64,000 nt of DNA from a virus: positions 62,001-126,000 of IMG/VR virus record IMGVR_UViG_3300033143_001962, one strand, 5' to 3'. The position numbers and the translations under genes are program-made. The notes below the pieces were generated by a model that saw only the letters and a list, made by a program, of their open reading frames with translations, made no database searches and was not told the DNA's origin. Below are positions 6,865 to 49,808 of this stretch, in pieces. Every line of letters starts with the position of its first letter. Positions within the stretch are counted from its first letter, which is position 1.

Positions 6865-7094
6865 TGAGCAGATTTGAATTCAGACCGTTTACGCCAATGG
6901 ACACGTTCCAACCTGGGTTTACGCATTTAGTAAAAGTGTTCAACTGGCTTGATGCCAACGACATTAGTTACATAACCAGAGAGCAAATAGATAAAACAAA
7001 TTTCGAACCGTATACACAAATAGCAATGTCTAGTAGAAGTGCTACGCTATTTGCATTAAAGTGGAGTAATTTAATTAATGTCTTTGCCAAATAA
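6864..7094 (+). CDS. Small hypothetical protein inside the radical SAM array
   Basis: 76 residues, starting in a TAATG junction with the previous radical SAM gene and overlapping the next one by 17 bases. No known domain is recognised. The segment IAMSSRSATLFALKWSN resembles the C-terminal motif of the microprotein family at 18-20 kb, but here about ten residues follow it. The interleaved position makes it a possible substrate or adaptor of a neighbouring radical SAM enzyme. Confidence 0.6.
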   Translation: MSRFEFRPFTPMDTFQPGFTHLVKVFNWLDANDISYITREQIDKTNFEPYTQIAMSSRSATLFALKWSNLINVFAK

Positions 7095-8265
7095 AACATT
7101 TTGTGTCCTACCGTGGATTAGTTTAGAAACAAGTCCTATCGGCACCGTGCGACCGTGTTGTCTTGCAGATGATGAGATTACAGATGACAGTGGCAGGAAG
7201 TTTAACTTAAACGATGATAGTTTAATAACAATACAGAACAGTACGTACATGGAGAAGCTACGTCAACAGTTCTTAGACGGTAAGATGCCAGAAACATGCC
7301 GCAAGTGCTGGGACGAAGAAAAAGTTGGCCGTACAAGTAAGCGTATGAATACACAAGTACGCTTAGAGCCCTTAATTAAAGATATAAAAGAATGGGGTCA
7401 GTCGGCAAATGATTTACAGTTCTTAGATTTAAAGCTAGGTAACATTTGTAATCTTAAGTGCAGAATATGTGGTAGTTGGAGCAGTAGTACATTCGCAGCA
7501 GAAGAAATAAAGTGTTCGGAAAATAAAGAATTTCATCGTAACATGAATAAGATGGGTGCATGGCCTAGGACTGCTACATCGTTTTGGAGTGAGTTAGATT
7601 TCTTATCTGGCGACATACGTTACCTTGAATTTACAGGTGGTGAGCCATTTATGATACGTGAGCATTTTGAATTCTTACAACGTTTAGCAGATAAGAACTT
7701 AGCAAGCAGAATAGAAATACATTACAATACAAACGGCACACAGTATCCAAAAGAGTTCTTAGATGTATGGAAACATTTTAAGCATGTTGAAATAGCATTC
7801 AGTATAGACAACGTAGGTAAACGTTTTGAGTACGAGCGCACAGGCGCAAAATGGGATATGGTTAACTACAATATTAAAAAGTTCATTAAGCTGCGCGAAG
7901 AGAATTTGAACATATCGTTACAGCTTTGTTGTACTATTAACATCTATAATGTGTTATACTTAGAAGATATATTCAACTGGGAACACTTCCAAGACTTTAA
8001 TTATGTACATTGGAATATGTTACATGATGCACCTCAGAATTGCATTAAGTCGTTACCAGAAAATGCTAAAGATGCAGTGCATGATGAATTGTTAATGGCA
8101 GATGTCGATGACAAAACATTAGATGAATTTAGAAACATTGTCGACTTTATGTACAGTGGTAAAGGAGTGTCCGACATCCTTAATGATATTGTTAAGTTAG
8201 ACATAAGACGCAATTGTACATTAGAAGACACACATAAGGAACTATTTGACTTATTATATGGATAG
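7078..8265 (+). CDS. Radical SAM protein with N-terminal twitch-type domain (type B)
   Basis: 395 residues. N-terminal FCVLPW (C9), RPCCLA (C27, C28) and CRKCW (C74, C77) form the twitch-like region; radical SAM cluster CNLKCRIC (C124, C128, C131); FTGGEPF follows. It begins only a few residues before the first cysteine, as in most annotated phage proteins of this kind. Overlaps its upstream and downstream neighbours by 17 and 20 bases, consistent with a translationally coupled operon. Confidence 0.88.
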   Translation: MSLPNKTFCVLPWISLETSPIGTVRPCCLADDEITDDSGRKFNLNDDSLITIQNSTYMEKLRQQFLDGKMPETCRKCWDEEKVGRTSKRMNTQVRLEPLIKDIKEWGQSANDLQFLDLKLGNICNLKCRICGSWSSSTFAAEEIKCSENKEFHRNMNKMGAWPRTATSFWSELDFLSGDIRYLEFTGGEPFMIREHFEFLQRLADKNLASRIEIHYNTNGTQYPKEFLDVWKHFKHVEIAFSIDNVGKRFEYERTGAKWDMVNYNIKKFIKLREENLNISLQLCCTINIYNVLYLEDIFNWEHFQDFNYVHWNMLHDAPQNCIKSLPENAKDAVHDELLMADVDDKTLDEFRNIVDFMYSGKGVSDILNDIVKLDIRRNCTLEDTHKELFDLLYG

Positions 8266-9319
8266 AATTAAATTAGTACAGCTGGCAGATTCGTTGACAT
8301 ATCTATCAACGATGGACTTACTAGATGACAGTTTTTTCTCAATTGAGAATTATGTTGAGACAAAAACGTACGACAGCCAAACGGTATTTATTATTAACGC
8401 TTTCGCGCTACACAATAACAACGAAACCGCTATCCGAATACTGGATGCTGGATTTAAGTTAATAGTTGATAGTGTCTGGGAGTCTTATAACAATGCCGGT
8501 GTTGCATTATGGCGTAAGTACGGCAACCAGGTCCTAGTGTCGTACTGTGGCACAAAGTCGATATACGACGATTGCACTAATGTACATTTAGTTCCTAGCT
8601 ACTTTTGGATTCGCGAATTTTTGTTTAGTAAAAAAAATAAGCTAGACAGGTATGTACCGTCGCGCATTAATACCAAAAAATTCCTAATGCCAATGAATAA
8701 AATGAAGCCAGACCGCCGCATAATTTACAACACATTAAAAGATGATGACGCAATAATTAGTCGTCACGAAGATGGGATTTCGTTGCCAATGGACGATACT
8801 GGTGCTAATCTTATATTTACTAGTACAACCGACTTTGATAGAGAATTTAATTCAAATTGGTACGATCAAACGTATTTTTCAGTTGTTACCGAGACTAACC
8901 AAACCGTACTCCCCGAAGAGTTAAAAGGAGTGATTCCACCCGGCGACACTACAGAGACGATGAAGAGGTGGTATGGCGGCAGTAGTATTTTTATAACAGA
9001 AAAAACATTTAAACCGATTATGTTTTCTCATCCATTTATAGTTATGGGCCAATCAGGCACACTGGCAAGGTTATCCGAGTTAGGGTTTATTACGTTCAGA
9101 CATATATTTGACGAGTCGTACGATAAAGAGTTCGGAGCACGTAATCGGTTAACAATGATAAAGAATGACATTGAAAACTTTGATGTTATGTTATATGACC
9201 ATCCGCTTACTGCAGAAATACTCGCATATAATCGCAATCACTTTTACAATGAAGAAATTGTAAACAAAATGTTACAAGATGAAATAATAGAACCATTAAT
9301 GGAGTTTGCAAATGCATGA
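8246..9319 (+). CDS. Possible glycosyltransferase-like protein
   Basis: 357 residues from a TTG start with AAGGA 5 bases upstream; the first ATG, at 8258, would leave 17 bases to that site. The C-terminal half contains ITEKTFKPIMFSHPFIVMG followed by GTLARLSELGF, ITFRHIFDESYD and an Arg-rich step. The EKT-KPI and proline-phenylalanine layout resembles the nucleotide-sugar-binding end of GT-B glycosyltransferases such as fucosyltransferases; this is recalled family knowledge, not a verified match. It would add a sugar to a product of the cluster. Function is uncertain. Confidence 0.5.
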   Translation: MTYYMDRIKLVQLADSLTYLSTMDLLDDSFFSIENYVETKTYDSQTVFIINAFALHNNNETAIRILDAGFKLIVDSVWESYNNAGVALWRKYGNQVLVSYCGTKSIYDDCTNVHLVPSYFWIREFLFSKKNKLDRYVPSRINTKKFLMPMNKMKPDRRIIYNTLKDDDAIISRHEDGISLPMDDTGANLIFTSTTDFDREFNSNWYDQTYFSVVTETNQTVLPEELKGVIPPGDTTETMKRWYGGSSIFITEKTFKPIMFSHPFIVMGQSGTLARLSELGFITFRHIFDESYDKEFGARNRLTMIKNDIENFDVMLYDHPLTAEILAYNRNHFYNEEIVNKMLQDEIIEPLMEFANA

Positions 9320-9641
9320 ACTAACTGACAACCAACAAGAAGTATGGGATAGATTAAAACACACTGGAATTGACTCTGAAATCGCAGCTAGTCTACAACG
9401 CCGCCTACAATTTTTTACTGGCATGTCGAATAATGCAGCAACTCAGATTGAGGTAGAGCAAAGTCTGTGCGAATCACTAAATCATTATCTCGATAATCGA
9501 GAAATTTATGATTATACAGTCGTGTGCGACGCAGGTAACAACACCGTCCATGACGTTACTACTAATAGGTTAAATGTTGATGTATTTATTAAGCCTACTA
9601 GAGCAGCAGATATCATAAACATAAACTTGACGATAAAATAA
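9312..9641 (+). CDS. Small protein resembling a tail sheath C-terminal domain
   Basis: 109 residues; ATG at 9312 with GGAG 7 bases upstream. The C-terminal half (LDNREIYDYTVVCDAGNNT, then NRLNVDVFIKPTR and IININL) matches the pattern at the end of contractile tail sheath proteins (CD..NNT, N..V.D..IKPTR, I.LNF). The N-terminal 55 residues are mostly helical in character. With the sheath N-terminus-like protein at 4582, the array carries mimics of both sheath ends. Possible roles: sheath assembly control, a minor tail component, or a modification substrate. Confidence 0.6.
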   Translation: MHELTDNQQEVWDRLKHTGIDSEIAASLQRRLQFFTGMSNNAATQIEVEQSLCESLNHYLDNREIYDYTVVCDAGNNTVHDVTTNRLNVDVFIKPTRAADIININLTIK

Positions 9642-10966
9642 TGAATAAATTTTGTCTAGCACCATTCTTCCATACTTATATGTCACCACAGACAGAACGC
9701 CGCATGTGTTGTGCATCACGCGAACCAGCGCAGAACTTTAAACAGTACATAGATACTGATGAAGGAACAGGCGAGTACAATCCACTTACACTAGCAGAAC
9801 ACTGGAACAGTCCGCACATGATGTCAGTACGTAAACGTATGCTCGCAGGTGAAGAACTTCCAGAATGCGAAGTATGCAACGATAAGCTTTTAAATACAGA
9901 CGTCTATCGCAGCTACTTCCAGCACTTGTTTGAACATAAACGACAAGAAGCTATTGCTAAGACAGATGCAGACGGGTTTACAACATGTAATACAGTAAGT
10001 TGGGACTACAGATTTAGTAACTTGTGCAACTTCAAATGCCGTATGTGCGGAGACATGTTAAGCTCAGCGTGGGAAACTGAAGAACGCAATAACGATATGA
10101 TTAACTTCAATGATCCTAAAAACAATTGGATGCAACCTGAAGTTAGACAAAAAATTAGCAAGTTCCACGACTGGCAAGTACAAGAAGAATTCAGCGATGC
10201 AATCGAAGCACACTGCATGGAAGAGATATACTGGGTAGGTGGCGAACCTCTTATGATGGAAGAACACTGGCGCTTTATGTCACGCATAATTGAGCTAGGT
10301 GACGGTCCAGGACTGTACGCTCGATATAACACTAACTTATCCAGACTTAAGTACAAAGGTCTAGACTTGCGTACAATGTTGCCTAAGATACGTGACTGGC
10401 AAATTTGTGCAAGCATTGACGGAACAGGCGAAATTGGTGAGTACATACGTACTGGATTGGATTGGCCAATGTTCTTATCTAACTACCAAGAGATGCAGAC
10501 GATAGCAACGCACCCTAGACAAATGCGCTTAGACTTTACCCTTACACTACCTGGGTTATTCGAACTGAAAAATATGTTCAACTTAAGTAAAGACTTAAAT
10601 ACAATGATGCTTGCTAAAGTTACATTTGCATTCAGCCCAGACATTTTAATGTCACCGTTAGCATTGCCTAAACACATTTTACATAGAATTGTAAATGAGT
10701 TTTTAGACTATGCTGATAAAGAAGGCTACAATAACAATCAACAACCCCTAATAGATGTCTTGAAGAATCTACTTAGCAGACAAACCTTTAGAGAAGAGTG
10801 GGCTCCTGATTATATTGCAGGTGCAACAAAAGGCAAAGCACGAATATTAAAGCTTGAAGCAATTAGACCTGCTTCACTTACATTTGAAGACATACTTAGA
10901 AAGGATGATGAAGCACATGAGTGGTACACAGCCATTAGACACGATGGTAATAACATTACAGAATAG
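9641..10966 (+). CDS. Radical SAM protein with N-terminal twitch-type domain (type B)
   Basis: 441 residues, starting in a TAATG junction. Cysteines: FCLAPF (C5), RMCCAS (C23, C24), CEVCN (C76, C79); radical SAM cluster CNFKCRMC (C129, C133, C136); WVGGEPL follows. It is the sixth and last radical SAM gene of the array. The next gene, whose product has a relative beside the radical SAM gene at 28436, overlaps it by 23 bases. Confidence 0.88.
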   Translation: MNKFCLAPFFHTYMSPQTERRMCCASREPAQNFKQYIDTDEGTGEYNPLTLAEHWNSPHMMSVRKRMLAGEELPECEVCNDKLLNTDVYRSYFQHLFEHKRQEAIAKTDADGFTTCNTVSWDYRFSNLCNFKCRMCGDMLSSAWETEERNNDMINFNDPKNNWMQPEVRQKISKFHDWQVQEEFSDAIEAHCMEEIYWVGGEPLMMEEHWRFMSRIIELGDGPGLYARYNTNLSRLKYKGLDLRTMLPKIRDWQICASIDGTGEIGEYIRTGLDWPMFLSNYQEMQTIATHPRQMRLDFTLTLPGLFELKNMFNLSKDLNTMMLAKVTFAFSPDILMSPLALPKHILHRIVNEFLDYADKEGYNNNQQPLIDVLKNLLSRQTFREEWAPDYIAGATKGKARILKLEAIRPASLTFEDILRKDDEAHEWYTAIRHDGNNITE

Positions 10967-12002
10967 AGACACTGGTGATTTACTTCCAGTTTACATTGAT
11001 GTATTTAACGATGCATTAAGTACAAAGTGGTACGGCGCACTTAACGATATACTAGCAAAAGAATTACACTTAGAAAAGAACTATCAGTTCTTTGGTATTC
11101 CGCAGTACGAACGTAATGGTGATTACATCACTGATCAAATAAACGATTCAATACATGCAATAAATGATGCTAACTTAGGTTATCACATACACGATTGTTT
11201 TAGTATGGCAAACACTATACAGGACATCGATGGCGAAATAGGCGATAACCTCCCTGGTCGTAAACTAATACATCAACGTATGAATGATTTGCATAGATAT
11301 TTTGAAGACTTGCAGGGTACGTCCGGAAATATGTCTCCTTTTTATAATAAAGCAGATAAGTACACTCGCTGGCACATTAGGCAATTGAACTTGCTATGTC
11401 ACGAGTACGAAAGTTGGGTACTTAGTTACCGCAAACAAGAGTACGCTAAGGAATGGATGCGTCCGAGTCAGTTAATGTGCTTTTTAAATGCTCCACGCTT
11501 TGAATTGACAGCAGAAGATTACGAAAGTTTCGGTATCGAAACAATAGCTCGACCCTTAGGTGGTGTTTTTGTAGGTGTTAACAAAGCAGTAGGAAAACAT
11601 CACTGGGAAGTATTCCAAGATGAAGGCGGACGTAGCATAGATGAATTAACTACTTCAACATTGCGTTCACAGACAGAAGCAGCAGGAGACTTTGATATAG
11701 AATGGGCAAACAATCCAGGTGAATACGAGTTTATGAAAAAAGAATTAGCTGATTTTAAACAGTGGCTAATAAACAACAACTTTGATCCAGCCGATAAATC
11801 ACTAACAATTGGTCATCCACAAGTTGCTCAAGTTAACCTAAACCGTAGCTTTGGCACTGACGATTATGCTATAATATGGAAGCAGCTATTTAATCATTTA
11901 GATGTGTTCTCAATTGAAACCGAGGACAATAGAGTTGAGTTCGAATACAATTGGGATGATCTGGATTACAGAGAACAGCAAGTAGAGGCACTTAGTAAAT
12001 GA
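10944..12002 (+). CDS. Radical-SAM-associated hypothetical protein
   Basis: 352 residues. The ATG at 10944 is chosen because the N-terminus (ITLQNRDTGDLLPVYIDVFN) then aligns with the homologue at 29682-30527 (ITFSNNFKLNFDIYN). Both share an N-terminal aromatic and acidic strand pair, a W..AL segment, an FxGFP/YGF-like element and repeated IN..I segments; no catalytic motif is recognised. Both copies lie directly next to a radical SAM gene, which suggests a partner, carrier or recognition function. Ends in an ATGA junction with a 33-residue peptide gene. Confidence 0.7.
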   Translation: MVITLQNRDTGDLLPVYIDVFNDALSTKWYGALNDILAKELHLEKNYQFFGIPQYERNGDYITDQINDSIHAINDANLGYHIHDCFSMANTIQDIDGEIGDNLPGRKLIHQRMNDLHRYFEDLQGTSGNMSPFYNKADKYTRWHIRQLNLLCHEYESWVLSYRKQEYAKEWMRPSQLMCFLNAPRFELTAEDYESFGIETIARPLGGVFVGVNKAVGKHHWEVFQDEGGRSIDELTTSTLRSQTEAAGDFDIEWANNPGEYEFMKKELADFKQWLINNNFDPADKSLTIGHPQVAQVNLNRSFGTDDYAIIWKQLFNHLDVFSIETEDNRVEFEYNWDDLDYREQQVEALSK

Positions 12003-12100
12003 AATGGCTTAAAAAGATGTGGAACAAAATTAAATTAGAACGACGTTATCGCAAAAAGCTTAAAGAGCTTAAGAAACGCGATCCGTTTATCTATAAATGA
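11999..12100 (+). CDS. Small basic peptide (33 aa)
   Basis: Starts in an ATGA overlap with the previous gene and ends in an ATGA overlap with the next. The peptide is strongly basic, beginning MKWLKKMWNKIKLERR and ending KKRDPFIYK, and is probably an amphipathic helix that binds nucleic acid, membrane or another protein. The perfect junctions at both ends support it as a real gene. Function unknown. Confidence 0.65.
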   Translation: MKWLKKMWNKIKLERRYRKKLKELKKRDPFIYK

Positions 12101-12276
12101 CACACGCACAAGAAACAAACCCGTGCGTTGGCTGCATGATTATCGATGAATGTACTGGTTACTGTACTGGTTGCTTTCGATCAGAATCTGAAATAGGATC
12201 TTGGGATAGCTTTACTGACATTACCCGCAATTCAATATTAAGTGTACTAGGAGTACGAAGAAGAGACAATGGCTAA
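12097..12276 (+). CDS. DUF1289-like cysteine-rich protein
   Basis: 59 residues. The pattern PCVGC, then DECTGYCTGCFR, then EIGSW matches the DUF1289 family (CxGxC..D..GYC.GC.RT..EI..W), small bacterial proteins proposed to bind metal or an Fe-S cluster. It overlaps the basic peptide gene (ATGA) and the carbamoyltransferase gene by 8 bases. An Fe-S-related role would fit a cluster with many Fe-S enzymes, but this is inference. Confidence 0.65.
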   Translation: MTHAQETNPCVGCMIIDECTGYCTGCFRSESEIGSWDSFTDITRNSILSVLGVRRRDNG

Positions 12277-13777
12277 TATATTAGGAATAAGTGCAGGCTT
12301 CCACGACGCAGGTCTGGCAGTAGTTGATAGTGAAACAGGACTAATTAAATTTGCAGGACACAGCGAACGCTTCAGTAAGAAGAAGCATGACGCTAAAATA
12401 TGTCCTGAGATACTTGAGTACGCAAAAGGGCTAGGCCCAATTAGTACTATAGCGTACTACGAGAATCACTTGAAGAAGAATTTACGTATGTGGCGCGCAG
12501 GACAGAAGATAGAAAACTTTAACTGGACTCTGAAGAGTGAACTTAAACAACACTTGCCTGACAATGAAGTACTTCTTGAAGGTGCAAACCTTAAAAGCTA
12601 CGACCACCACAAGTCACATGCCGCAGCAGGATTTCAAACAAGCCCGTACGATGCAGCGACAGTAGTGGTAATAGATGCTATAGGTGAGTTTGATACTATT
12701 AGTATTTGGAATGCAAAGTACGATAAGAATGGCTTTGCAAAGTACAAGAAGGTATGGAGTCAAGGATATCCTCATAGCATTGGATTATTTTACAGTGCAG
12801 TAACAGGCAGCGTAGGCTTACGTCCAATGGACGAGGAATACATTTTAATGGGCATGGCTGCATACGGTAGCCCGCGCCAAAGTATTAAAAAGATACGTAG
12901 AGAATTAATCACATCAGTAAAGCCACCTAAGTTTAAAGAAAACTTGCACATAGGTATAGAACAAGATTCGTTAGAAGACTCACGCATAGACAAGTACGAT
13001 GTAGCAGCAGGCGCACAATTCCTAGTAGAAGAAATGATTGAAGGTATCATGGAAAAGTCTAAGCAGTACGATAACACAGGCAACTTAGTGTACATGGGTG
13101 GAGTGGCATTAAATTGTAGTGCTAATAAGTACCTCGGACAGTACTACGATAATATTTGGATTATGCCTAACCCAGGCGATGCAGGCAGTAGCTTAGGCGC
13201 AGCCGCATTAGCTTACGGTAAGAAAGTATTGTTCGGTGATGCATTCTTAGGGTATAATATTATAAGTGATGGCTATCCCGTAGACGCAATAATTAAAGAA
13301 TTACTTAGCACTAAAATTGCAGGTGTTGCTAACGGTAAAGCAGAGTTCGGACCACGCGCACTAGGTAATAGAAGCTTACTTGCAGACCCTAGAGGTAATG
13401 ATATTAAAGATAAAGTAAACGAAATTAAACAACGTCAAAAGTTCCGCCCGTTTGCGCCTGTGATATTAGAGGAACATGTGCATGACTACTTTGTAATGCC
13501 GGACGGATTCGAAACAAGTCCGTACATGCAAGTCACCGCTAAGTGCAAAGCACCTAAAGAGTTCCCTGCTATTGTACACCACGATGGTACAAGTAGAGTT
13601 CAAACTGTTCCTAAAGACAGAACAGGTATTAGAAAGCTATTGGAAAAGTGGTACGAGGAAACAGGATGTCCTATGTTACTTAATACTTCGTTGAATGTTA
13701 GGGGCGAACCTATAGTAAACGATGTGCATGACGCACATAGATTTGAACAGCATTACGGAGTAAAGGTATTTTCTTAA
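12269..13777 (+). CDS. Carbamoyltransferase, NodU/CmcH/TobZ family
   Basis: 502 residues. N-terminal Kae1-like nucleotide-binding half: ILGISAGFHDAG, metal-binding YDHHKSHAAAGF (H113, H114, H117), VVIDAIGEFD, and GGVALNCSANKYL near 276. The C-terminal YrdC-like half includes FGPRALGNRSLLADPR and NTSLNVRGEPIV. The family moves a carbamoyl group from carbamoyl phosphate through carbamoyl-AMP to a hydroxyl, on sugars, antibiotics or, in some viruses, 5-hydroxymethylcytosine. About 50-60 residues shorter than many bacterial members. With radical SAM, SGNH and GT-like neighbours, a glycan or small-molecule acceptor is plausible; DNA base modification is less supported because ThyA here is not a dCMP hydroxymethylase. 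Confidence 0.88.
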   Translation: MANILGISAGFHDAGLAVVDSETGLIKFAGHSERFSKKKHDAKICPEILEYAKGLGPISTIAYYENHLKKNLRMWRAGQKIENFNWTLKSELKQHLPDNEVLLEGANLKSYDHHKSHAAAGFQTSPYDAATVVVIDAIGEFDTISIWNAKYDKNGFAKYKKVWSQGYPHSIGLFYSAVTGSVGLRPMDEEYILMGMAAYGSPRQSIKKIRRELITSVKPPKFKENLHIGIEQDSLEDSRIDKYDVAAGAQFLVEEMIEGIMEKSKQYDNTGNLVYMGGVALNCSANKYLGQYYDNIWIMPNPGDAGSSLGAAALAYGKKVLFGDAFLGYNIISDGYPVDAIIKELLSTKIAGVANGKAEFGPRALGNRSLLADPRGNDIKDKVNEIKQRQKFRPFAPVILEEHVHDYFVMPDGFETSPYMQVTAKCKAPKEFPAIVHHDGTSRVQTVPKDRTGIRKLLEKWYEETGCPMLLNTSLNVRGEPIVNDVHDAHRFEQHYGVKVFS

Positions 13778-37067: not shown

Positions 37068-37844
37068 TTAAATCTCTAGGATTAAACGTGGGTCGTAATC
37101 AGTGCTTTCAAACACTTCTGTGCCATCGTAGCTCTTACTAGCATATCCGTGTTGGTTACTTAGCACCATTGTACCATTTAGATCTACGCTAGTTGTATGG
37201 TGTGTATGTCCAAATAACCAGTATTTTGCTTTGGCGTCTAGTATTTTCTCTTCCAAGCCAGTATTGTGGAAACCGTACGTTGTATAGCTTAGTGGAAAGA
37301 ATGGATGTGGAATCATAATAGGACAATGATGTGTAATGATAACATCAGCATCGTAGTTGATCTTTTCACGTGTTCTGTTGTTAATTGCTATTGTGTTATC
37401 AACGTGCCATTTACGCGGAGCAAAGTTCGCATCATCTGTAATACATTCAAAGTCATAAAAACCTTTGTTGACAGCTTGTTTAGAGAACCAATCACCATCA
37501 TGTAAGTCAGTCCATAGTGTGCTACCCCAAAAGGTAACACCATCTAGTTCTAAGTTATCAGTGCCGAGTGCTTCATCCATTAAAATAATGTCATGGCGCT
37601 CTGCAAAATCGTGTGCGATTTGTAATGCTTGGAGGTACTTGCTATGATAGAACTCGTGGTTCCCTAGTACCCAAATAATCTTGTCAGTTGTTTCTTTAAC
37701 CTTATTGAAATAAGTTTCTAAATCTAGTAAGTTGCATATCAGCCCAATGTCACCAGCACAGACTACAACGTCAGAAGAAACCGCAGGTTCCACTAGTGGC
37801 CCACGGTTCTCAATGTGTGTATCTGATTGTAAATGTATTTTCAA
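37068..37844 (-). CDS. Calcineurin-like metallophosphoesterase
   Basis: 258 residues from a TTG that overlaps the stop of a 26-residue peptide gene (TTGA). Motifs in order: QSDTHIE, VCAGDIG, GNHEFYH, ITHHCP and FGHTHH give a complete two-metal site. Members hydrolyse phosphodiesters, cyclic nucleotides or RNA ends. Location just downstream of a diguanylate cyclase invites the idea of a nucleotide phosphodiesterase, but that is only inference. Confidence 0.85.
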   Translation of the reverse strand: MKIHLQSDTHIENRGPLVEPAVSSDVVVCAGDIGLICNLLDLETYFNKVKETTDKIIWVLGNHEFYHSKYLQALQIAHDFAERHDIILMDEALGTDNLELDGVTFWGSTLWTDLHDGDWFSKQAVNKGFYDFECITDDANFAPRKWHVDNTIAINNRTREKINYDADVIITHHCPIMIPHPFFPLSYTTYGFHNTGLEEKILDAKAKYWLFGHTHHTTSVDLNGTMVLSNQHGYASKSYDGTEVFESTDYDPRLILEI

Positions 37845-37921
37845 TATATTAAACTGTATATGTAAATTGTAATACTAATTGTAATTATAACGAATGCAAA
37901 AAGCTTAACTACTGTTCTCAT
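37841..37921 (-). CDS. Single-helix membrane microprotein (26 aa)
   Basis: MRTVVKLFAFVIITISITIY is one transmembrane helix. The start overlaps the GGDEF stop (ATGA) and the stop overlaps the metallophosphoesterase start (TTGA), so it is coupled at both ends. Confidence 0.55.
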   Translation of the reverse strand: MRTVVKLFAFVIITISITIYIYSLIY

Positions 37922-38703
37922 TGAACAAAGTCCTTAGCAGTGTACATTCTTTCATCCGCTAAGTGAATTAACTTATCAATTGAACTAGACTCTGTGCTGA
38001 TAGCAACACCGGCACTACATGAAATATTTAAAATATTATTCTCGTAATGTAGTGGCTCGCGCACCCGCATCGTTAACTTGTCACGTACTGTTTCTACATT
38101 TTCTGTGTTGTTAGGAAGTACAACAATAAACTCATCGCCACCATAACGACAAAATAAATCACCATCTCTTAAGACATTTGCGATACGCTTGGCAATAGTT
38201 TTAAGTACGAAGTCACCAGTGCTGTGACCGTGTGTGTCGTTGATTGCTTTAAACTTATTAAGGTCTATAAACATCAATGAAAATTCATCTGTGATTTTAT
38301 TCATTGCGCTAAAGAACTGATCGCGTGTTAGTGCATCAGTTAATGTATCAGTTAATGCATAAGCACCTGGGTCATGAAATACTGCATACGATAAACTGTC
38401 ATTGAGTTTATGACATTGTAACCGTAGCTTCACTCGCGCCCCTTCTTCTGAAATACCGATAGCGGGCGCATGGCTAGTGTTGCAAGTGTCACACTCGTTA
38501 CATGCAAACTTACCAACTGATCCAGTATTACAAAATAAGTAATCGTTTAGACTAGACCCGATTGCACGTACATTATCGACACCAAGCAAGTTAGCACCGT
38601 ATTCATTGATGTCTACAATATTTTGGTCAATATCAAAAACAACAATACCTAGCGGGCATGTGTTTACAATTTGCTTAATGGCATCAATGTCAAGTTGCTG
38701 CAT
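37918..38703 (-). CDS. PAS-GGDEF diguanylate cyclase
   Basis: 261 residues from the ATG at 38703. PAS domain at about 8-115 (CPLGIVVFDIDQNIVDIN) with a cysteine-rich insert FACNECDTCNTSH (66-78) that might bind metal, heme or sense redox. The GGDEF domain has FIDLNKFKAIND (metal D147), an intact RYGGDEF (188-192 for the motif) and an RxxD inhibitory site (R179-D182) exactly five residues before it. It should make c-di-GMP from two GTP and be product-inhibited. No membrane segment. It lies two genes downstream of a polysaccharide synthase and barrel pair. Confidence 0.9.
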   Translation of the reverse strand: MQQLDIDAIKQIVNTCPLGIVVFDIDQNIVDINEYGANLLGVDNVRAIGSSLNDYLFCNTGSVGKFACNECDTCNTSHAPAIGISEEGARVKLRLQCHKLNDSLSYAVFHDPGAYALTDTLTDALTRDQFFSAMNKITDEFSLMFIDLNKFKAINDTHGHSTGDFVLKTIAKRIANVLRDGDLFCRYGGDEFIVVLPNNTENVETVRDKLTMRVREPLHYENNILNISCSAGVAISTESSSIDKLIHLADERMYTAKDFVQ

Positions 38704-38935
38704 TATCGTTTTCTCTGTTAATGAAGAACATTTTGTACGAGACGATGTTGTCTCCGCGCGTTGCGTAGCCTGTGTGTTTGTCAAGTTTTTTCCATTTTAT
38801 TTTTGTTGTTTCGGGAAAGGTTTCAAGGTAGTGTTCACATGCGGTGATAGCTGATTGCTTGCTAGACACAACCGCAAGTGGTTCTGGATGAACCTCTTGG
38901 TCTTCGTGTCCTGACATTATCACATACGCTCTCAT
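38690..38935 (-). CDS. Hypothetical protein
   Basis: 81 residues; alpha/beta pattern with VVSSKQSAITACEHYLETFP. First gene after the promoter at 38965-38993 and overlapping the diguanylate cyclase start by 14 bases, so co-translated with it. Function unknown. Confidence 0.65.
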   Translation of the reverse strand: MRAYVIMSGHEDQEVHPEPLAVVSSKQSAITACEHYLETFPETTKIKWKKLDKHTGYATRGDNIVSYKMFFINRENDNAAT

Positions 38936-38964
38936 TGTATCACCTGTTTATTAACTGTTAACTA

Positions 38965-38993
38965 AGTATAGCAGACCCGTAACAAAAGGTCAA
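38965..38993 (-). promoter_or_regulatory. Sigma70-like promoter
   Basis: Minus strand TTGACC, 17 bases, TATACT, within AAAAGGTTGACCTTTT. Drives the diguanylate cyclase operon. Confidence 0.85.
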
Positions 38994-39010
38994 CCTTTTA
39001 ATCACTGTAT

Positions 39011-39024
39011 AAATCAATGACTTA
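39011..39024. repeat. GTAAGTCATTGATTT-type repeat, opposite orientation
   Basis: AAATCAATGACTTA spans the stop of the barrel gene, inverted relative to the copies at 21434 and 24447. Confidence 0.65.
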
Positions 39025-39921
39025 AAAGGTGTATTTTAGCTTTACGCCGTATAATTCCCATTTATATGGGTAAATCCCACCTATATCGAGTAAATCGTAC
39101 AAGAATTGTACTTGTAAGTCCTTATTAATGTTGTTACGCACTAGGACCTTAAAGGTCACTTCCGGAGATTTGTCTGCTGAATTGATTTGTTGTGTGCCAA
39201 CCATAAGTTTACTATCAACGTACCACTTGTTGCTGTACTTCTTTCTATATCCTACACCAATTAGCTCATCTTGCAGGTGCTCGGGTGAGAAGTACTCCTT
39301 AGGATTAAAGCTTGCGTCTTTAATTTTAAGTAATGCTTGAGCACTTAGCCCGTACTTGATAGGAACAATAACTTTTAATTTAGTTATGTCTTTAACATTA
39401 CCATCACTGAAGTTTTGTGTAGTGTACGCACCAACTAGCGTTGTATCTAGGAATGATGTATTGTAATCCCCTGCAACTCCAATTGACGTAAACGTAATCT
39501 TAGAGTTAATTGCATTAACACTGTCTACAATATTCTTCTCAGCACTTGCAGATACATTGCCTTTGCCTAACTTGCTTGATACATTAATAGTGCCACCAAA
39601 TGTAGACCAGTTACTGCCGAAGTAGTTATGAACCGTACCGTTAACTTGTACACCCTTGCTTAAACGTTTGAATGTACCTTGAACTTTGTTAAGTGACACT
39701 GACTTCAATGTATCACTGGCTGTGAACACACCACTGTTAATACCGTAGATGTAATGTCCTGCTTTTCTTGAGTACCCGCCAGTAAACAATCTAGTATCGT
39801 TGCCATCACTGTCAGTTGTTATTTCGTGCTCGAAGTTTACTTCGTCTGCTAGTGCTAAGTCAGTGATAAGAATTAGTAAAAATACTATCGCTGCTAACAC
39901 AAATCCTTGAGCAATTTTCAT
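39022..39921 (-). CDS. Outer-membrane beta-barrel protein
   Basis: 299 residues. Signal peptide at about 1-26 (VFLLILITDLALA before DEVNF). The rest shows alternating amphipathic strands such as HYIYGINSGVF, KWYVDSKLMVG and KWELYGVKLKYTF, ending in a C-terminal Phe as in outer-membrane proteins inserted by BAM. No TPR region. The start forms an ATGA overlap with a PgaC-like synthase gene, so it may be the export pore, like the barrel of PgaA. No specific family is claimed. Confidence 0.75.
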   Translation of the reverse strand: MKIAQGFVLAAIVFLLILITDLALADEVNFEHEITTDSDGNDTRLFTGGYSRKAGHYIYGINSGVFTASDTLKSVSLNKVQGTFKRLSKGVQVNGTVHNYFGSNWSTFGGTINVSSKLGKGNVSASAEKNIVDSVNAINSKITFTSIGVAGDYNTSFLDTTLVGAYTTQNFSDGNVKDITKLKVIVPIKYGLSAQALLKIKDASFNPKEYFSPEHLQDELIGVGYRKKYSNKWYVDSKLMVGTQQINSADKSPEVTFKVLVRNNINKDLQVQFLYDLLDIGGIYPYKWELYGVKLKYTF

Positions 39922-41249
39922 TTAGTTCCCCATGTCTTTTTCGTGTTAAATACTTCACTTAAATATCCTGTAACAGCCGCCGGAGCAACTAGTACTTGGT
40001 ACACAATCATGTACCATATGAACCCAATTGGGTTACGTCTCACTTTTAATCCCATCTTTTCAAAGATGCGTGTTTGATTAATATAGAATATCCAGTTACT
40101 TAAAAATACAATAGGTAACATCATTAAAATGTAAACGCCTACAATAGTATCGTACCCAAACAACAACGATGCTAATGCACCAGGTATAAAGATAAACAAA
40201 TAAAATGTATCAACAAACGGGATGAACATGTTAATCCAAACAAATGGAGTATTCATCTTAATATCTGTAATAGTCCTAGGATGTATTTTAAATGCTTCTA
40301 TAAGTCCACGTGACCAACGCTTGCGCTGATGGAAGAATGTTTTATAATCTTCTGGAACATTTGTAAATGCTATTGCAGTTTCGTCGTACCCTATTCTATA
40401 TCCCTTTGCACGTAGAGCCCAAGTCAAGACAATATCTTCACCTACAGTGTTTGGCCATCCGCCTACTTCATTTAATGCCGAAGTGCGGTATATTGAAAAT
40501 GCGCCTTGGGCAACTAACGTACCTTGGAATAAACTTTGTACACGCTTCACGACAGAAATGCCATGGAAGTAATCCCACTCTTGTATCTTTGTAAGCCAGT
40601 TGTGTCTACTGTTACGTACAAGTGGTGTACCTGCTACTGCCGCAGTGTTCTCCGGACCAAGTACAATGTTACATACGATATTGTTGATAGCATCTTTGTA
40701 CAAGTAAGTATCTGCGTCTATTGTAATAACGTATTCGTCATCAGTTAACGCAAGTCCGCGGAGTAATGCGTGAGCCTTGCCTACATTTTCTTCTAGCATT
40801 AACGTGTGTATTGCTAAGTTATCGCGTGTGTGCTGAGTTGCTGCTATCTGCGCGTTCTCTACGGTAGCATCCTTTGATCCATCATCAATTACAATTACAT
40901 TTAGTTTCCCGCCGTACTCTTGTTTAGCAACAGACTCAATAGTAGCTTCTATACTTTCTTCTTCATTGTATGCGGCAATTAGAATAGTTATGTCAGGATA
41001 TTCCTCAAGCTCGCCTTTAGTGTATTCTGGCCGCTTGTCCATTAACAGCCCTGTCATTATAAAGACGTTTGCAAAGCCTGGAACAAATGCTAAGAAAAAT
41101 ACTACAACCCAAGCTGCATAAGGAACCCAAAATGCAAATAGTACTTTAAGTTCTTCTACCCAAGGTAGTAGAATCATCCAGCTAATTACTAGCCAGAACG
41201 ATCCCATAAGTGTGCAAATTGCGAGTTTCCCTTTTACTGGTATGTACAT
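39918..41249 (-). CDS. Processive family-2 glycosyltransferase (PgaC/hyaluronan synthase-like)
   Basis: 443 residues. Two N-terminal membrane spans (about 10-30 and 40-66), a GT-A domain with DDG (122-124), DAD (178-180), GED (270-272) and the processivity motif QRKRW (308-312), then further spans (about 330-430). The end KTWGTK is typical of this group. Such synthases polymerise and move glycans such as poly-N-acetylglucosamine or hyaluronan across the inner membrane, often under c-di-GMP control. Co-translated with an outer-membrane barrel; a PgaB-type deacetylase is not seen. Confidence 0.9.
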   Translation of the reverse strand: MYIPVKGKLAICTLMGSFWLVISWMILLPWVEELKVLFAFWVPYAAWVVVFFLAFVPGFANVFIMTGLLMDKRPEYTKGELEEYPDITILIAAYNEEESIEATIESVAKQEYGGKLNVIVIDDGSKDATVENAQIAATQHTRDNLAIHTLMLEENVGKAHALLRGLALTDDEYVITIDADTYLYKDAINNIVCNIVLGPENTAAVAGTPLVRNSRHNWLTKIQEWDYFHGISVVKRVQSLFQGTLVAQGAFSIYRTSALNEVGGWPNTVGEDIVLTWALRAKGYRIGYDETAIAFTNVPEDYKTFFHQRKRWSRGLIEAFKIHPRTITDIKMNTPFVWINMFIPFVDTFYLFIFIPGALASLLFGYDTIVGVYILMMLPIVFLSNWIFYINQTRIFEKMGLKVRRNPIGFIWYMIVYQVLVAPAAVTGYLSEVFNTKKTWGTK

Positions 41250-41260
41250 TTAAAATCCGT

Positions 41261-41791
41261 TTAATCTTTGTGGTCATCAGGTACGTTAAGCCTGTCGTAT
41301 GTAGTGAACTTACCAGACTTGATGTCTTGGTAGTTGATGGGCTTACCACCTGTTAGCTCAACACAAACGTTAACATACCTTTCATCCTTAACACCAGTTG
41401 AGTGGGTATGTCCGTGTATAACTGGCCTGCCCCACAGTTCGCTTTCGTGAATTGGAAAGTGGCTAAGCCAATGCTTTTTGTATTTAACCGGTCCGATGAT
41501 ATCGTCAAATATTTCTAAGTACTCACTTGCAGAGCGTTGATCGTGATTGCCCATTAGCAGTATTTTAGTACCTGGTAATCCCTTAATGTGTGTTAGATCA
41601 AATCCAACGTCACCTAAGATGTAAATCTTGTCACGCTTGTTAACTGTGTCATTCCACAGATCGTAAATCATTTCATCGTGTTCTTCAATTGTTTTAATTC
41701 CGCCCATCGCTTTCGATCGTGCGTAATCATGGAACTCTAGTACCCTAGCGTGTCCTAAGTGTAAGTCACTGTTAAAATATACTTGACTCAT
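41261..41791 (-). CDS. Metallophosphoesterase
   Basis: 176 residues. SDLHLGH, LGDVGFD, LMGNHDQ, SHFPIHE and HGHTH form a full two-metal calcineurin-like site typical of short phage phosphoesterases. Lies 11 bases upstream of the glycosyltransferase. Substrate unknown (cyclic nucleotide, RNA 2',3'-phosphate or phospholipid are possible). Confidence 0.88.
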   Translation of the reverse strand: MSQVYFNSDLHLGHARVLEFHDYARSKAMGGIKTIEEHDEMIYDLWNDTVNKRDKIYILGDVGFDLTHIKGLPGTKILLMGNHDQRSASEYLEIFDDIIGPVKYKKHWLSHFPIHESELWGRPVIHGHTHSTGVKDERYVNVCVELTGGKPINYQDIKSGKFTTYDRLNVPDDHKD

Positions 41792-42008
41792 TTTTCTTCC
41801 TTTCCTCTATTTGTTTTGTAATTGAAGCCTCTGTTTGCTTCAATGCTTGGCCTCTTGCCCTGACTCTTGCTAAAACATCAGCAACGGTCTCTTCTTCTTG
41901 TATGCTACCGTCATCTAATAATTTGTACATAGTGAGGTACTGTTCCCATAAGTCTTGTAACCCAGGATGCGCCTCACGCATTAATTCATCTTTGCATTTC
42001 ATAGACAT
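41772..42008 (-). CDS. DAWEQYQ-family small protein (78 aa)
   Basis: Contains REAHPGLQDLWEQYLTMYKL near the N-terminus, a divergent form of the family helix, then a charged helical tail. Overlaps the phosphoesterase gene by 20 bases. Confidence 0.68.
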   Translation of the reverse strand: MSMKCKDELMREAHPGLQDLWEQYLTMYKLLDDGSIQEEETVADVLARVRARGQALKQTEASITKQIEERKKNESSIF

Positions 42009-42289
42009 TATTCCGGATATCTTCTACTAAATGCACTTTTCATATCTGCTAATGTCTTTCGCTTTCTCGCCATAACATCCGCCAATGAATCTTTCTTAGG
42101 GTCGGGATTATCTACTAGGCACAATTTTAAAATAATGTTGTACTGTTCCCATGCATCTTTTAACGCAGGGTTAGTCTCACGCATCTTTTCTTCGTGCGAC
42201 TTACTTGGATAACTGTTTTTGACATCCTGCCGCAAAGTCATCTCTCTATAGAGATCTTTAATGTTTTCGTATAAATCATCGTCATTCAT
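42008..42289 (-). CDS. DAWEQYQ-family small protein (93 aa)
   Basis: The family segment RETNPALKDAWEQYNIILKL lies in the middle, followed by a basic tail similar to that of the gene at 41772 (SLADVMARKRKTLADM against TVADVLARVRARGQAL). Confidence 0.7.
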   Translation of the reverse strand: MNDDDLYENIKDLYREMTLRQDVKNSYPSKSHEEKMRETNPALKDAWEQYNIILKLCLVDNPDPKKDSLADVMARKRKTLADMKSAFSRRYPE

Positions 42290-42428
42290 TATTTTGTACC
42301 TCTTTAACTTTTACAACATACCCGCCATGATCCTCTGCCCATCGCTCAGCTCCGTACAAACTGTTAAATGCTTCTTTAACATCGCCAGTTTCATCTACAA
42401 CTAGATGCCATACCCAATTCTGGTTCAT
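42282..42428 (-). CDS. Hypothetical protein (48 aa)
   Basis: Starts at the ATG at 42428, overlapping the stop of the preceding DAWEKYQ gene (ATGA). The segment VWHLVVDETGDVKEAFNSLY suggests a small alpha/beta fold. Function unknown. Confidence 0.6.
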   Translation of the reverse strand: MNQNWVWHLVVDETGDVKEAFNSLYGAERWAEDHGGYVVKVKEVQNNE

Positions 42429-42574
42429 GTGTGTTCTACCATCTTTAAAATAATTTGATACTTTTCCCAAGCATCTTTAAGCGCAGGATGTTCCTCACGT
42501 AACTTTTCCTCGTTAACTTCGATCCCGTTGAACGGCCCATCGTTGAGTAAATCAGCAAAATCTGTTAAGCTCAT
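42425..42574 (-). CDS. DAWEQYQ-family small protein (49 aa)
   Basis: Short gene read directly from the sequence; MSLTDFADLLNDGP at the N-terminus and REEHPALKDAWEKYQIILKM as the family helix at the C-terminus. TGATG upstream junction and ATGA downstream junction. Confidence 0.68.
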   Translation of the reverse strand: MSLTDFADLLNDGPFNGIEVNEEKLREEHPALKDAWEKYQIILKMVEHT

Positions 42575-42948
42575 CACGATGCTAACCTCGCTAATAATTT
42601 ATATTGTTCGTAAGCTTGCTTAAGCTCTTCGTCGTCCTTTATTAAGTTCTGTACTTTTTCATTAACACTGTACAAGTGCTTTGCTTCTTTACGCCACCGC
42701 CAATCATGCATTGCTAAGTAATTACCTGGGATAATAACCGGCGCCCGCATTTTTAAATGTTGCGGTAACAAGGCTTGATACGTATTGTACGTATCCTTAA
42801 TCCCTTTATTGTTAACTACTGCAATCATAGCTTTTCTGTGTGCTAGTACGATAGATTGTGCTTCAGCATCCAGTTTTCTACGTATTTCAATACGTTCTGC
42901 TTCCGTAGCTATTCTTACCCCTGTACTTGTCATTGGCTCTGCACTCAT
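42574..42948 (-). CDS. DAWEQYQ-related protein (124 aa)
   Basis: Helical protein with a divergent copy of the family helix in the middle (NTYQALLPQHLKM) and a C-terminal KQAYEQYKLLARLAS that matches the end of the family pattern. Overlaps the previous gene by four bases. Confidence 0.62.
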   Translation of the reverse strand: MSAEPMTSTGVRIATEAERIEIRRKLDAEAQSIVLAHRKAMIAVVNNKGIKDTYNTYQALLPQHLKMRAPVIIPGNYLAMHDWRWRKEAKHLYSVNEKVQNLIKDDEELKQAYEQYKLLARLAS

Positions 42949-43178
42949 TTTCTATTCAACTTCAAAACAATTTGATACTTTTCCCAAGCATCTTTTACTG
43001 CTATGTTATTCTTCCTTAAGTCTAATTCTTCTAGTGCATGACCCCTTGGTGGTCGTGGAGGAGGTGGTGGCGGAACTACCCAGCTCGGGCTACGTGACGG
43101 CGGAATATAATTAGGCCCGATACTATCAGTGTACCCGCTACTAAATGCTTGTTTTAACCTGCGCCACATCTCTTTCAT
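42945..43178 (-). CDS. DAWEQYQ-family protein with proline-rich linker (77 aa)
   Basis: The ATG at 43178 overlaps the preceding stop (ATGA); a frame opening at 43217 reads through that neighbour. Basic N-terminal helix, a polyproline linker (WVVPPPPPPRPP) and the family helix KNNIAVKDAWEKYQIVLKL at the C-terminus. Confidence 0.68.
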   Translation of the reverse strand: MKEMWRRLKQAFSSGYTDSIGPNYIPPSRSPSWVVPPPPPPRPPRGHALEELDLRKNNIAVKDAWEKYQIVLKLNRK

Positions 43179-43315
43179 TTGCCGTGCAACCTTAATAACA
43201 TTTGATACTTTTCCCAAGCATCTTGTAAGTCTGGATGTTTAGCCCGCGCCTCAGCCTCAGACATACGTTGTTCAATTGGCTGACTGAGCTTACGATTTCG
43301 TAAACGCTCAAGCAT
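43175..43315 (-). CDS. DAWEQYQ-family small protein (46 aa)
   Basis: Short gene read from the sequence: basic MLERLRNRKLSQ start, then RAKHPDLQDAWEKYQMLLRL. ATGA overlap with the next gene. Confidence 0.65.
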   Translation of the reverse strand: MLERLRNRKLSQPIEQRMSEAEARAKHPDLQDAWEKYQMLLRLHGK

Positions 43316-43334
43316 TTCTGTCCCTGTTTTCTTT

Positions 43335-43709
43335 CTAGTCACTAAACCCTCTGCCCCCTCGTGGTTGCATTATTGTTGGCCTTACTGAGTTGTTAGCTAT
43401 TTTCATTTCTTCAACTTCTGCGTTCTGTGTGCTAACTAACTTCAACATCATTTCGTACTGTAACTTAGCATGTTGATACGCTTCGTATGTTTCATTTAAC
43501 CCTGGATGTTCCGCTCTTAAATTTGCTTCGACTTCACTGTAATCTTTACGTGCTGGCTTCACCCGCGGCATTGGCGGTGGACGCAGGTGGTGCGGAGCAA
43601 TCTTCATCGGGTCATAACCTGATTTTGTAAACAAGCTTTTAAACTCTTCCCAGAACCCTGGGGTATGTATATCTCGTCCGCCTGGCGGATTAGGTGGTAA
43701 TTGTCCCAT
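43335..43709 (-). CDS. DAWEQYQ-family protein with proline-rich region (124 aa)
   Basis: Starts at the ATG at 43709, overlapping the upstream stop by one base. Proline-rich first half (GQLPPNPPGGRD, RPPPMPRVKP) and RAEHPGLNETYEAYQHAK then LQYEMMLKLV as an extended family helix. Gly/Arg tail. Confidence 0.65.
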   Translation of the reverse strand: MGQLPPNPPGGRDIHTPGFWEEFKSLFTKSGYDPMKIAPHHLRPPPMPRVKPARKDYSEVEANLRAEHPGLNETYEAYQHAKLQYEMMLKLVSTQNAEVEEMKIANNSVRPTIMQPRGGRGFSD

Positions 43710-43903
43710 TATTTTCTCGCTAACCTCAACACTGTTTGGTACTGTTCCCATGCATCTTTAACGGCATCGTGATTCTCACGCAAGTCTAATTCTTCAGCGA
43801 CTTCTTTACCGTCGCGTTCAGGAATGTAGTAATCGGTATTAATTTTCCATTCGTCTGATTTACGGTTATTAAAATAATCCTTAGCGTAATCGCCCCAGTT
43901 CAT
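43709..43903 (-). CDS. DAWEQYQ-family small protein (64 aa)
   Basis: N-terminal aromatic-rich segment and C-terminal family helix RENHDAVKDAWEQYQTVLRL. One-base junctions on both sides. Confidence 0.68.
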   Translation of the reverse strand: MNWGDYAKDYFNNRKSDEWKINTDYYIPERDGKEVAEELDLRENHDAVKDAWEQYQTVLRLARK

Positions 43904-48178: not shown

Positions 48179-48385
48179 TTAATATCCAAATGGTTTATTC
48201 TCCCATTTAAATACTTCTGTTAATGTTTTTAGATCTACAACCTTATCGTAGTCAGCTTTCGCATCTTCGTACTCGTCATAAGATTGTGTATCTACCTCTT
48301 CGGACAAAGCCCAGGTACCATCTTCGTCTAAGTAGATGTATAACTCGACTTCGTCCTCGATAGTTTTATTTTCAGATAGCTGCAT
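48179..48385 (-). CDS. Hypothetical acidic protein
   Basis: 68 residues, strongly acidic (ENKTIEDEVELYIYLDEDGT). Overlaps the nadV gene by 14 bases. Function unknown. Confidence 0.6.
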   Translation of the reverse strand: MQLSENKTIEDEVELYIYLDEDGTWALSEEVDTQSYDEYEDAKADYDKVVDLKTLTEVFKWENKPFGY

Positions 48386-49808
48386 TTTCTCTTACTTCAT
48401 CAAATGTGTATTCTTTAGTAACTGTACCATTAAAGAATACTGTTTTAAGTTGAACTTCTTGGTCACCGACGTGCTCTAAACGAACAGTTCTGTAATTGCC
48501 GAAGTCGTCTTTAACTAATGTTAACCGTCCTTTCTTAGATACTTTACCAGGATCAGTCTTTGGATCTTTAAACACATCAATCCATTTGTCATCTACGAAC
48601 GCTGCACTTGCCTTCATCGCAAACTTCTGTGTGTCACGATCTAGTTGCTGCAACATGCCACCACCCATACCGTATGCTACGTTATCTGCACTAAACCCAG
48701 CATCTTCGACAGCGGTAATGATTTCTTTAATGCTGTCGTATGTAATGCCATCACCTTGTATTACACGAATGCAATCAGGAAGCACTTTGTATCCAGTGTC
48801 AGTTTCGGTAGTACCGAACTTGTCAGCTAAAATGTTTAAAACATCTACGACTACTGTAGCAGGATCACCACTGTCTGGACGTATAACAATAGTTGCACCA
48901 CTGTCGATAACTTCCTGCTTAAGCTCGCCACCCCAGAAGTTTTCCGCTGCGTTCATCATATCGTAACTATCTGATACTACTGCAACCGTTGCGCCAGGCT
49001 TAGCAAACTGCTTCAACATGTTACGCATAGCATCTATCTCACCTTCGCGTCCGCCCCAACTTGTCATTGTACTGTGTTCACTTGCTGGAATACTAAACCC
49101 AGGCATCTTGTCTTCGAAGTATTCATCACCCATAGTTAACCATTTAGCTAGTGGTTCAGCGTTGTAGTACTCCATAGCAGTTAACGCACCAGTTATGGTA
49201 TCAGTTACCATAAAGTTAACTAAGTGAGCAGCACCGCCGATACCAGCACTCTCCATGCTACTAACGCCTCGCGCTCCGAAGTCAACTAACTTGAACGGTA
49301 ACGTATTCATGTCGCCACCTGTCTTCATCAAACTAGCTGCAAGTAATTTCTTAATAGCACGAGAGTTAGTTGCGACGGTTGTTCCGTACCATACAGCACG
49401 TAACAATGCAGTTTCAACGTAACTTGTTAACCAAAAGAACTCTGGGTCAGTGTTTATAATTGTAAACAATGCATTACCTGTTGGAACAGTTGTTCCTTCT
49501 GCTACTGCTTTGATTTCAAGTGGTAAGAATCCATCACACTTAGTAACAACACGCATCCAGCCATCGTAGTTGAATGGTGTACCGTGCGCTGCCGCAAAGT
49601 CTCTGCCCATCTCAACTTCTAATTCTGTTACTTGTTTTGATAGTACATTCTTTAAGAATATTTGTAAGCCAAACATTGTAGTGTCTGGAAACTTGCCACC
49701 TCTTGATTCACCGTATGATGCGATGTAAGATGTGTTTGGTGGGTATTGTAAAAATTGCCCAAGCTTATAGCTGTCTGTGTTTAGTACTATTGATTTTAAT
49801 ATATTCAT
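48372..49808 (-). CDS. nadV: Nicotinamide phosphoribosyltransferase (NAMPT)
   Basis: 478 residues, full length. Makes NMN from nicotinamide and PRPP. Landmarks: NTDSYKLGQFLQYPP at the N-terminus, VDFGARGVSSMESAGIGGAA, the active-site His in PASEHSTMTSWG, and VVSDSYD and IRPDSGDP in the C-terminal PRPP domain. Together with NadM downstream in the pathway it gives the two-step salvage route used by phages such as KVP40. Confidence 0.95.
   Translation of the reverse strand: MNILKSIVLNTDSYKLGQFLQYPPNTSYIASYGESRGGKFPDTTMFGLQIFLKNVLSKQVTELEVEMGRDFAAAHGTPFNYDGWMRVVTKCDGFLPLEIKAVAEGTTVPTGNALFTIINTDPEFFWLTSYVETALLRAVWYGTTVATNSRAIKKLLAASLMKTGGDMNTLPFKLVDFGARGVSSMESAGIGGAAHLVNFMVTDTITGALTAMEYYNAEPLAKWLTMGDEYFEDKMPGFSIPASEHSTMTSWGGREGEIDAMRNMLKQFAKPGATVAVVSDSYDMMNAAENFWGGELKQEVIDSGATIVIRPDSGDPATVVVDVLNILADKFGTTETDTGYKVLPDCIRVIQGDGITYDSIKEIITAVEDAGFSADNVAYGMGGGMLQQLDRDTQKFAMKASAAFVDDKWIDVFKDPKTDPGKVSKKGRLTLVKDDFGNYRTVRLEHVGDQEVQLKTVFFNGTVTKEYTFDEVRENAAI

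Follow-up and report, generated by a model that had tools for sequence, protein, structure and literature searches.

A probable two-gene synthase and export-porin system for exopolysaccharide secretion as recurrent phage cargo

Results

A 64,000-nucleotide stretch of viral DNA (the window; bases 62001-126000 of the 249,797-bp IMG/VR record IMGVR_UViG_3300033143_001962) encodes on its minus strand a family-2 glycosyltransferase (GT2) and, overlapping it, a secreted outer-membrane beta-barrel. The two genes are a fixed pair in the proteobacterial genomes tested, and their assignment as a polysaccharide synthase and its export porin is well supported. We consider it probable that they form a minimal exopolysaccharide system of proteobacterial origin, carried as cargo in a variable slot of the phage genome, which coats infected cells independently of the cyclic di-GMP (c-di-GMP) enzymes that the phage also encodes. 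Synthase-dependent secretion of this kind is known; the new element is a two-gene form, lacking the TPR part, as recurrent phage cargo. The source is a genuine phage, a jumbo myophage, whose record encodes a T4-type major head protein (phrog_138), portal, DNA polymerase, baseplate wedge and baseplate hub. The two genes are as follows.

39918..41249, minus strand: processive GT2 (PgaC/HAS-like), the proposed inner-membrane polymer synthase and translocator, assigned from Pfam, NCBIfam, motifs and relatives
39022..39921, minus strand: TPR-less 16-stranded outer-membrane beta-barrel, predicted to be of the PgaA/BcsC/PelB export-porin kind from blastp to GT2-adjacent barrels, AlphaFold and PDB fold matches

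The GT2 protein (443 amino acids) matches the Pfam family Glycos_transf_2 far above chance (2.3e-26) and has the motifs DDG (122), DAD (178), GED (270) and QRKRW (308), all in columns conserved across 12 aligned homologues, together with five hydrophobic segments, two near the N-terminus and three near the C-terminus. The protein thus has what synthase-dependent exopolysaccharide secretion requires of its GT2, a processive membrane enzyme carrying the DDG, DxD, GED/TED and Q-x-x-R-W motifs. Its best curated NCBIfam model is PgaC_IcaA, and because the score of 193.6 bits is well under the equivalog cut-off of 422.3 we describe the protein, as judged from profile scores, as PgaC-like rather than as PgaC. 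Only glycosyltransferase-type matches were obtained in Pfam, with no match to PilZ or MshEN. Full-length relatives at 45-50% identity occur in Legionella, Gallionella, Comamonas, Extensimonas and other Proteobacteria, and others at about 38-44% in the Bacillota.

The barrel gene shares an ATGA overlap with the GT2 gene (39918-39921) and encodes 299 amino acids with a hydrophobic N-terminal signal at residues 7-25. Its sequence alone gave no match in Pfam, PHROGs, NCBIfam or the PDB sequences, nor in phages or plasmids, and a peptide-pattern search of viral and genome contigs was also empty; the barrel alignment is too varied for pattern searching. The protein was instead identified through the neighbor genes of GT2 homologues. 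The gene adjoining the nearest bacterial GT2s encodes a barrel homologue, of about 310-320 amino acids in Extensimonas, Gallionella and Comamonas; in Legionella the homologous region lies at the C-terminus of a protein with a TPR part. The phage barrel matched the GT2-adjacent barrels of Extensimonas and Gallionella by blastp with E-values of 1e-12 and 2e-9 (from a search restricted to a handful of sequences), and tblastn against 80 loci gave values down to 3e-10. The Gallionella homologue scores 26.5 against a cut-off of 27 for PF21197, the PgaA barrel, whereas the phage barrel itself has no match. In every one of the 15 proteobacterial genomes where this could be tested, the barrel gene lies next to that of the GT2; eleven of them come from a first set of GT2 relatives and four from a second. 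One further genome (L180) stands outside this count, its stretch ending inside a downstream secreted protein. Among the 15, Legionella norrlandica has the two genes in convergent orientation.

Structure prediction from the single barrel sequence was useless (predicted local distance difference test, pLDDT, of 33.6), whereas an AlphaFold model from a 16-row alignment reached a pLDDT of 92.8 and contains 16 strands, with nothing but barrel after the signal. The five best PDB matches of this model are PgaA (4y25), BcsC (6tzk, 9b8a and 9b8h) and PelB (9h80), with template-modeling scores of 0.68-0.73 as opposed to about 0.5 or less for ordinary porins. The PgaA and BcsC barrels are 16-stranded (PMC9384988), and a 16-stranded outer-membrane export porin encoded with its synthase, as in synthase-dependent secretion, is found here as far as the modeled fold goes. 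The model thus indicates a TPR-less porin of the type that secretes polysaccharides. An earlier reading of this DNA from its letters (the sequence-only reading) had proposed a processive GT2 with these four motifs, coupled through ATGA to a secreted barrel, the two acting as synthase and export pore; this structural proposal is upheld and strengthened by the homology to GT2-adjacent bacterial proteins and by the fold matches.

The same arrangement was found in other phages. Searches of viral contigs with the GT2 and GGDEF proteins singly missed relatives that exist, and alignment-based searches recovered adjacent GT2 and barrel genes in at least four further phage contigs: an 85.8-kb record with tail-fiber genes near the pair (L235), two in which the pair lies beside a T4-type DNA polymerase (L237) or a T4-type exonuclease (L239), and a fourth (L236) whose phage status rests on its IMG/VR class, the one neighbor tested having no PHROG match. 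In L235 and L236 the two genes again overlap by 4 bases. In a tree the window GT2 groups with Proteobacteria of the Legionella side, and the GT2s of the four further phage contigs fall on the Comamonas side; well-supported branches require at least three phage-bacterium changes. The intact pair has therefore been captured repeatedly by different, unrelated phages, some of them clearly T4-like. None of the other phage records carrying the pair, which are fragments, has a GGDEF domain. The sequence-only reading had held that no such complete phage set was known; this needs revision, as the synthase and porin occur together in the contigs just named. A more distant GT2 without a barrel occurs in L238, by eye a phage of Gram-positive hosts. 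We rejected one further candidate (L234) as probably bacterial (63% GC content, sister to Comamonas in the tree), and did not count many "phage" records with GGDEF, EAL or PgaC matches that look bacterial, such as pieces of "Acinetobacter phage MD-2021a".

Jumbo phages such as Vibrio phage 2.275.O, PA5oct and GAP32 have capsid proteins 63-68% identical to that of the source phage, and two from IMG/VR, G412 (344 kb) and G422 (293 kb), have closer ones (91-93% identity, with 93% for G412). Comparison with these two closest relatives places the pair in a variable slot between conserved phosphoesterases, with the following neighbors.

41261..41791, minus strand: phosphoesterase (phrog_547) that bounds the slot on its upstream side, with 70-72% identity to the G412 and G422 copies (72% for G412)
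38965..38993, minus strand: sigma-70-like site TTGACC-17-TATACT, its second hexamer preceded by TG, lying between the barrel and 81-amino-acid genes
38690..38935, minus strand: 81-amino-acid protein between the barrel and GGDEF genes; by eye, a similar gene lies in the same G422 neighborhood (L233:7009-7269)
37918..38703, minus strand: PAS-GGDEF protein, predicted diguanylate cyclase (Pfam GGDEF 8.2e-36, PAS_8 5.1e-6), with a syntenic G412 copy
37068..37844, minus strand: metallophosphoesterase (phrog_1649), downstream border of the slot, conserved in G412 and G422

G412 retains the order PNKP, tail-like gene, metallophosphoesterase and GGDEF; an RNA ligase and a secreted collagen-tailed protein then replace the barrel and GT2, followed by the same phosphoesterase. 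The G422 slot, bounded by the same two phosphoesterases, contains secreted proteins, repeat proteins and an RNA ligase but lacks a GGDEF gene. Because the slots of the relatives hold other secreted proteins and G412 keeps the GGDEF gene, the comparison shows the pair to be cargo at a place where relatives keep secreted proteins, and the GGDEF gene to have its own history. The secreted protein in the G412 slot (L214:10176-11165, minus strand) possibly has a barrel-forming first part ahead of its collagen-like tail, and by eye a G422 gene (L233:1926-2702) is similar to it. Just upstream of the slot, small proteins encoded by tandem paralogues (window 41772-43903, minus strand) share a motif like 'NPALKDAWEQYQ'. 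Only 20 late-promoter-like sites of the form TATAAATA occur, none of them at the GT2-barrel pair. The sigma-70-like site is the joint best of 14 sites in the region, where shuffled sequences lead one to expect 19.9, so there is no enrichment; it is at most suggestive of a separate promoter for the 81-amino-acid and GGDEF genes, which would separate their expression from that of the pair.

The GGDEF gene lies two genes on from the pair, as the sequence-only reading had said, with its catalytic and inhibitory sites intact as RDGD-x5-GGDEF (RDGDLFCRYGGDEF); both the active site and the I-site (RxxD) are kept as RETDLFCRYGGDEF in the G412 orthologue. The open reading frame was listed as 37918-38784 from a TTG codon, and because the G412 copy aligns only from about residue 27 the protein probably starts at the ATG at 38703 (261 amino acids). 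The two copies are 46.5% identical over their whole length. A CNECDTC cysteine cluster in the PAS part of the window protein (37918-38703, minus strand), without counterpart in the G412 orthologue, could serve metal or redox sensing. The whole genome has three GGDEF and two EAL domains, of which two GGDEF and both EAL domains lie outside the window.

Genome 150920-151879 (within L009:5920-7630), minus strand: PAS-GGDEF gene adjoining a stand-alone EAL gene, with GGDEF orthologues in G412 and G422
Genome 151884-152630, minus strand: stand-alone EAL gene beside the PAS-GGDEF gene
Genome 171342-173333 (within L010:5489-8333), minus strand: membrane GGDEF-EAL gene overlapping an HDOD gene
Genome 170489-171349, minus strand: HDOD gene overlapped by the GGDEF-EAL gene

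The active site and I-site are retained in every GGDEF domain, as are the main motifs in the two EAL domains. Of the first two GGDEF genes, G412 has orthologues of both and G422 of one, and each of these relatives also has an EAL; no joint GGDEF-EAL and HDOD orthologue was found in the examined parts of either. The enzyme set thus looks like a trait of the phage group, against which stands that no GGDEF, and no GT2 either, was found in a further 36 capsid relatives, many of which are short contigs. GGDEF-like PHROG families already exist (seven matches) and Bacillus phage G has a GGDEF protein; no paper on phage-encoded diguanylate cyclases was found in the open-access literature searched.

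Several features away from the slot are recorded here in their own right. A TctA-type tripartite tricarboxylate transporter protein (genome 132483-134662; L008:6483-8662, minus strand; Pfam 6e-38) adjoins a secreted protein with weak matches to solute-binding proteins, and the two look like a nutrient-uptake pair carried by the phage. A cluster at window 708-13777 (plus strand), partly kept in G412, encodes four radical-SAM proteins and a NolO-like carbamoyltransferase and may be a modification pathway. A 4,342-amino-acid open reading frame (genome 39102-52130, plus strand) lies amid baseplate and tail genes, a nicotinamide phosphoribosyltransferase (phrog_448; window 48372-49808, minus strand) is conserved in G412 and G422, and a homologue of Thg1-type tRNA-His guanylyltransferase is encoded at genome 161375-162250 (L009:16375-17250, minus strand).

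Discussion

The activity, product, expression and benefit that we infer for the pair would run as follows. The GT2 would polymerize a nucleotide-sugar from the host pool, for which UDP-N-acetylglucosamine is the likeliest guess from the PgaC/NodC/HAS-like sequence, and would extrude the growing chain across the inner membrane; passage across the outer membrane would be the task of the 16-stranded porin. Expressed in infection, the pair would give the infected cell a polymer coat, which would most plausibly mask receptors from competing phages or clump cells. The adjacent diguanylate cyclase may separately raise c-di-GMP and act on host processes.

A number of observations weigh against this proposal. 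Neither G412 nor G422, the closest phage relatives, has a GT2 match, and the barrel is only 14-23% identical to its relatives. No TPR match was obtained for the barrel in Pfam, and so the periplasmic TPR scaffold of synthase-dependent secretion was not found; without it the chain would have to cross the periplasm unaided unless host proteins help. Several bacterial barrel homologues likewise have no TPR part. The genome also has no match to a deacetylase (PF01522) or to PilZ (PF07238), and known c-di-GMP receptor domains are absent.

We considered whether GT2, barrel and GGDEF form one module in which c-di-GMP made by the phage switches on its own synthase, as the sequence-only reading had it. 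The three genes lie within 3.3 kb on one strand, the cyclase sites are intact, and the cellulose, poly-N-acetylglucosamine (PGA) and Nfr synthases depend on c-di-GMP (PMC8669469). The genomic context argues otherwise: syntenic G412 keeps the GGDEF gene without a GT2, G422 has neither in its slot, and no GGDEF occurs in the other, partial phage records with the pair or in the 5-kb flanks of 11 proteobacterial GT2 loci. The sequence-only reading had itself listed a unit without the GT2 in relatives as grounds for its refutation, and G412 shows just that. Among roughly fifty Bacillota GT2 loci only four have a GGDEF nearby. The lack of PilZ in the genome and of MshEN in the GT2, and the possible separate promoter, point the same way, and we regard a single module as unlikely. 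The GGDEF gene is probably not part of the export pair and is a phage gene shared with a relative; most likely it belongs to a separate c-di-GMP enzyme set of the phage group and is no dedicated regulator. Regulation of the pair by c-di-GMP is conceivable and is not supported by these data, and the sequence-only reading is in this way partly supported, its regulatory half not being upheld. It also seems unlikely that the two PAS-GGDEF proteins, the EAL protein and the membrane GGDEF-EAL protein encoded beside an HDOD gene form a c-di-GMP circuit of the phage's own with its synthase and porin as one output, coating or aggregating infected cells at a chosen time.

Serotype conversion is common in phages, and the PHROG matches of the GT2 include GtrB-like O-antigen conversion (phrog_841), which would be explained if the enzyme added sugars to lipid or lipopolysaccharide and the barrel were an unrelated surface protein. 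The QRKRW motif and five hydrophobic segments are, however, typical of processive synthases, the PgaC/NodC models match far better, and the barrel is a constant partner and fits export porins, making serotype conversion very improbable. That the pair is a passenger without a selected role, kept by chance, would accord with its absence from G412, from G422 and from every other capsid relative that was searched. Yet both frames are open, all GT2 motifs are kept at 45-50% identity to relatives, and the intact adjacent pair has been captured repeatedly; moreover, because the codon usage of GT2 and barrel matches that of the phage (z of -0.08 and -0.38), the pair is not a recent accident. We judge chance retention to be improbable, and favor the exopolysaccharide system independent of the c-di-GMP set.

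If this is correct, phages export polysaccharide through the Gram-negative envelope with a synthase and pore of their own, a bacterial counterpart to the hyaluronan and chitin coats of chloroviruses. Repeated capture of the intact pair points to a general strategy of surface remodeling, which is easy to test because two genes suffice. A jumbo-phage group with enzymes that make and break c-di-GMP would likewise make the steering of the host's central lifestyle signal testable.

Comparison with known systems

Among bacterial systems, the pair resembles the pgaABCD poly-GlcNAc system in that PgaC_IcaA is the model nearest to its GT2 and PgaA (4y25) the fold nearest to its porin; it differs in a PgaC score far under the equivalog cut-off and in having no TPR domain and no deacetylase in the genome. 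No PgaD-like gene was noticed beside the GT2 gene, a PgaD profile not having been run on the genome. In NfrB/NfrA of E. coli the GT2 synthase gene likewise overlaps that of an outer-membrane export barrel (PMC8669469), whereas the phage GT2 is without the MshEN domain. The porin fold and the processive GT2 motifs are shared with BcsA/BcsC cellulose synthase and PelB, although the phage has neither PilZ nor TPR and its GT2 is only distantly related to the cellulose synthase models.

The chlorovirus PBCV-1 A098R hyaluronan synthase and the chitin synthases are also virus-encoded and place a polymer on the surface of the infected cell (PMC5408694), but theirs is an algal virus of a eukaryote, which has no outer membrane and hence no porin partner. 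The PBCV-1 hyaluronan synthase, which coats infected algae with a benefit that is also not known, is the closest experimental analogue (PMC5408694). Closest in gene content are the two-gene loci of Legionella, Gallionella, Comamonas and Extensimonas, which are chromosomal and in Legionella carry a TPR part, and in which homologues of both phage genes are direct neighbors, often overlapping by the same 4 bp.

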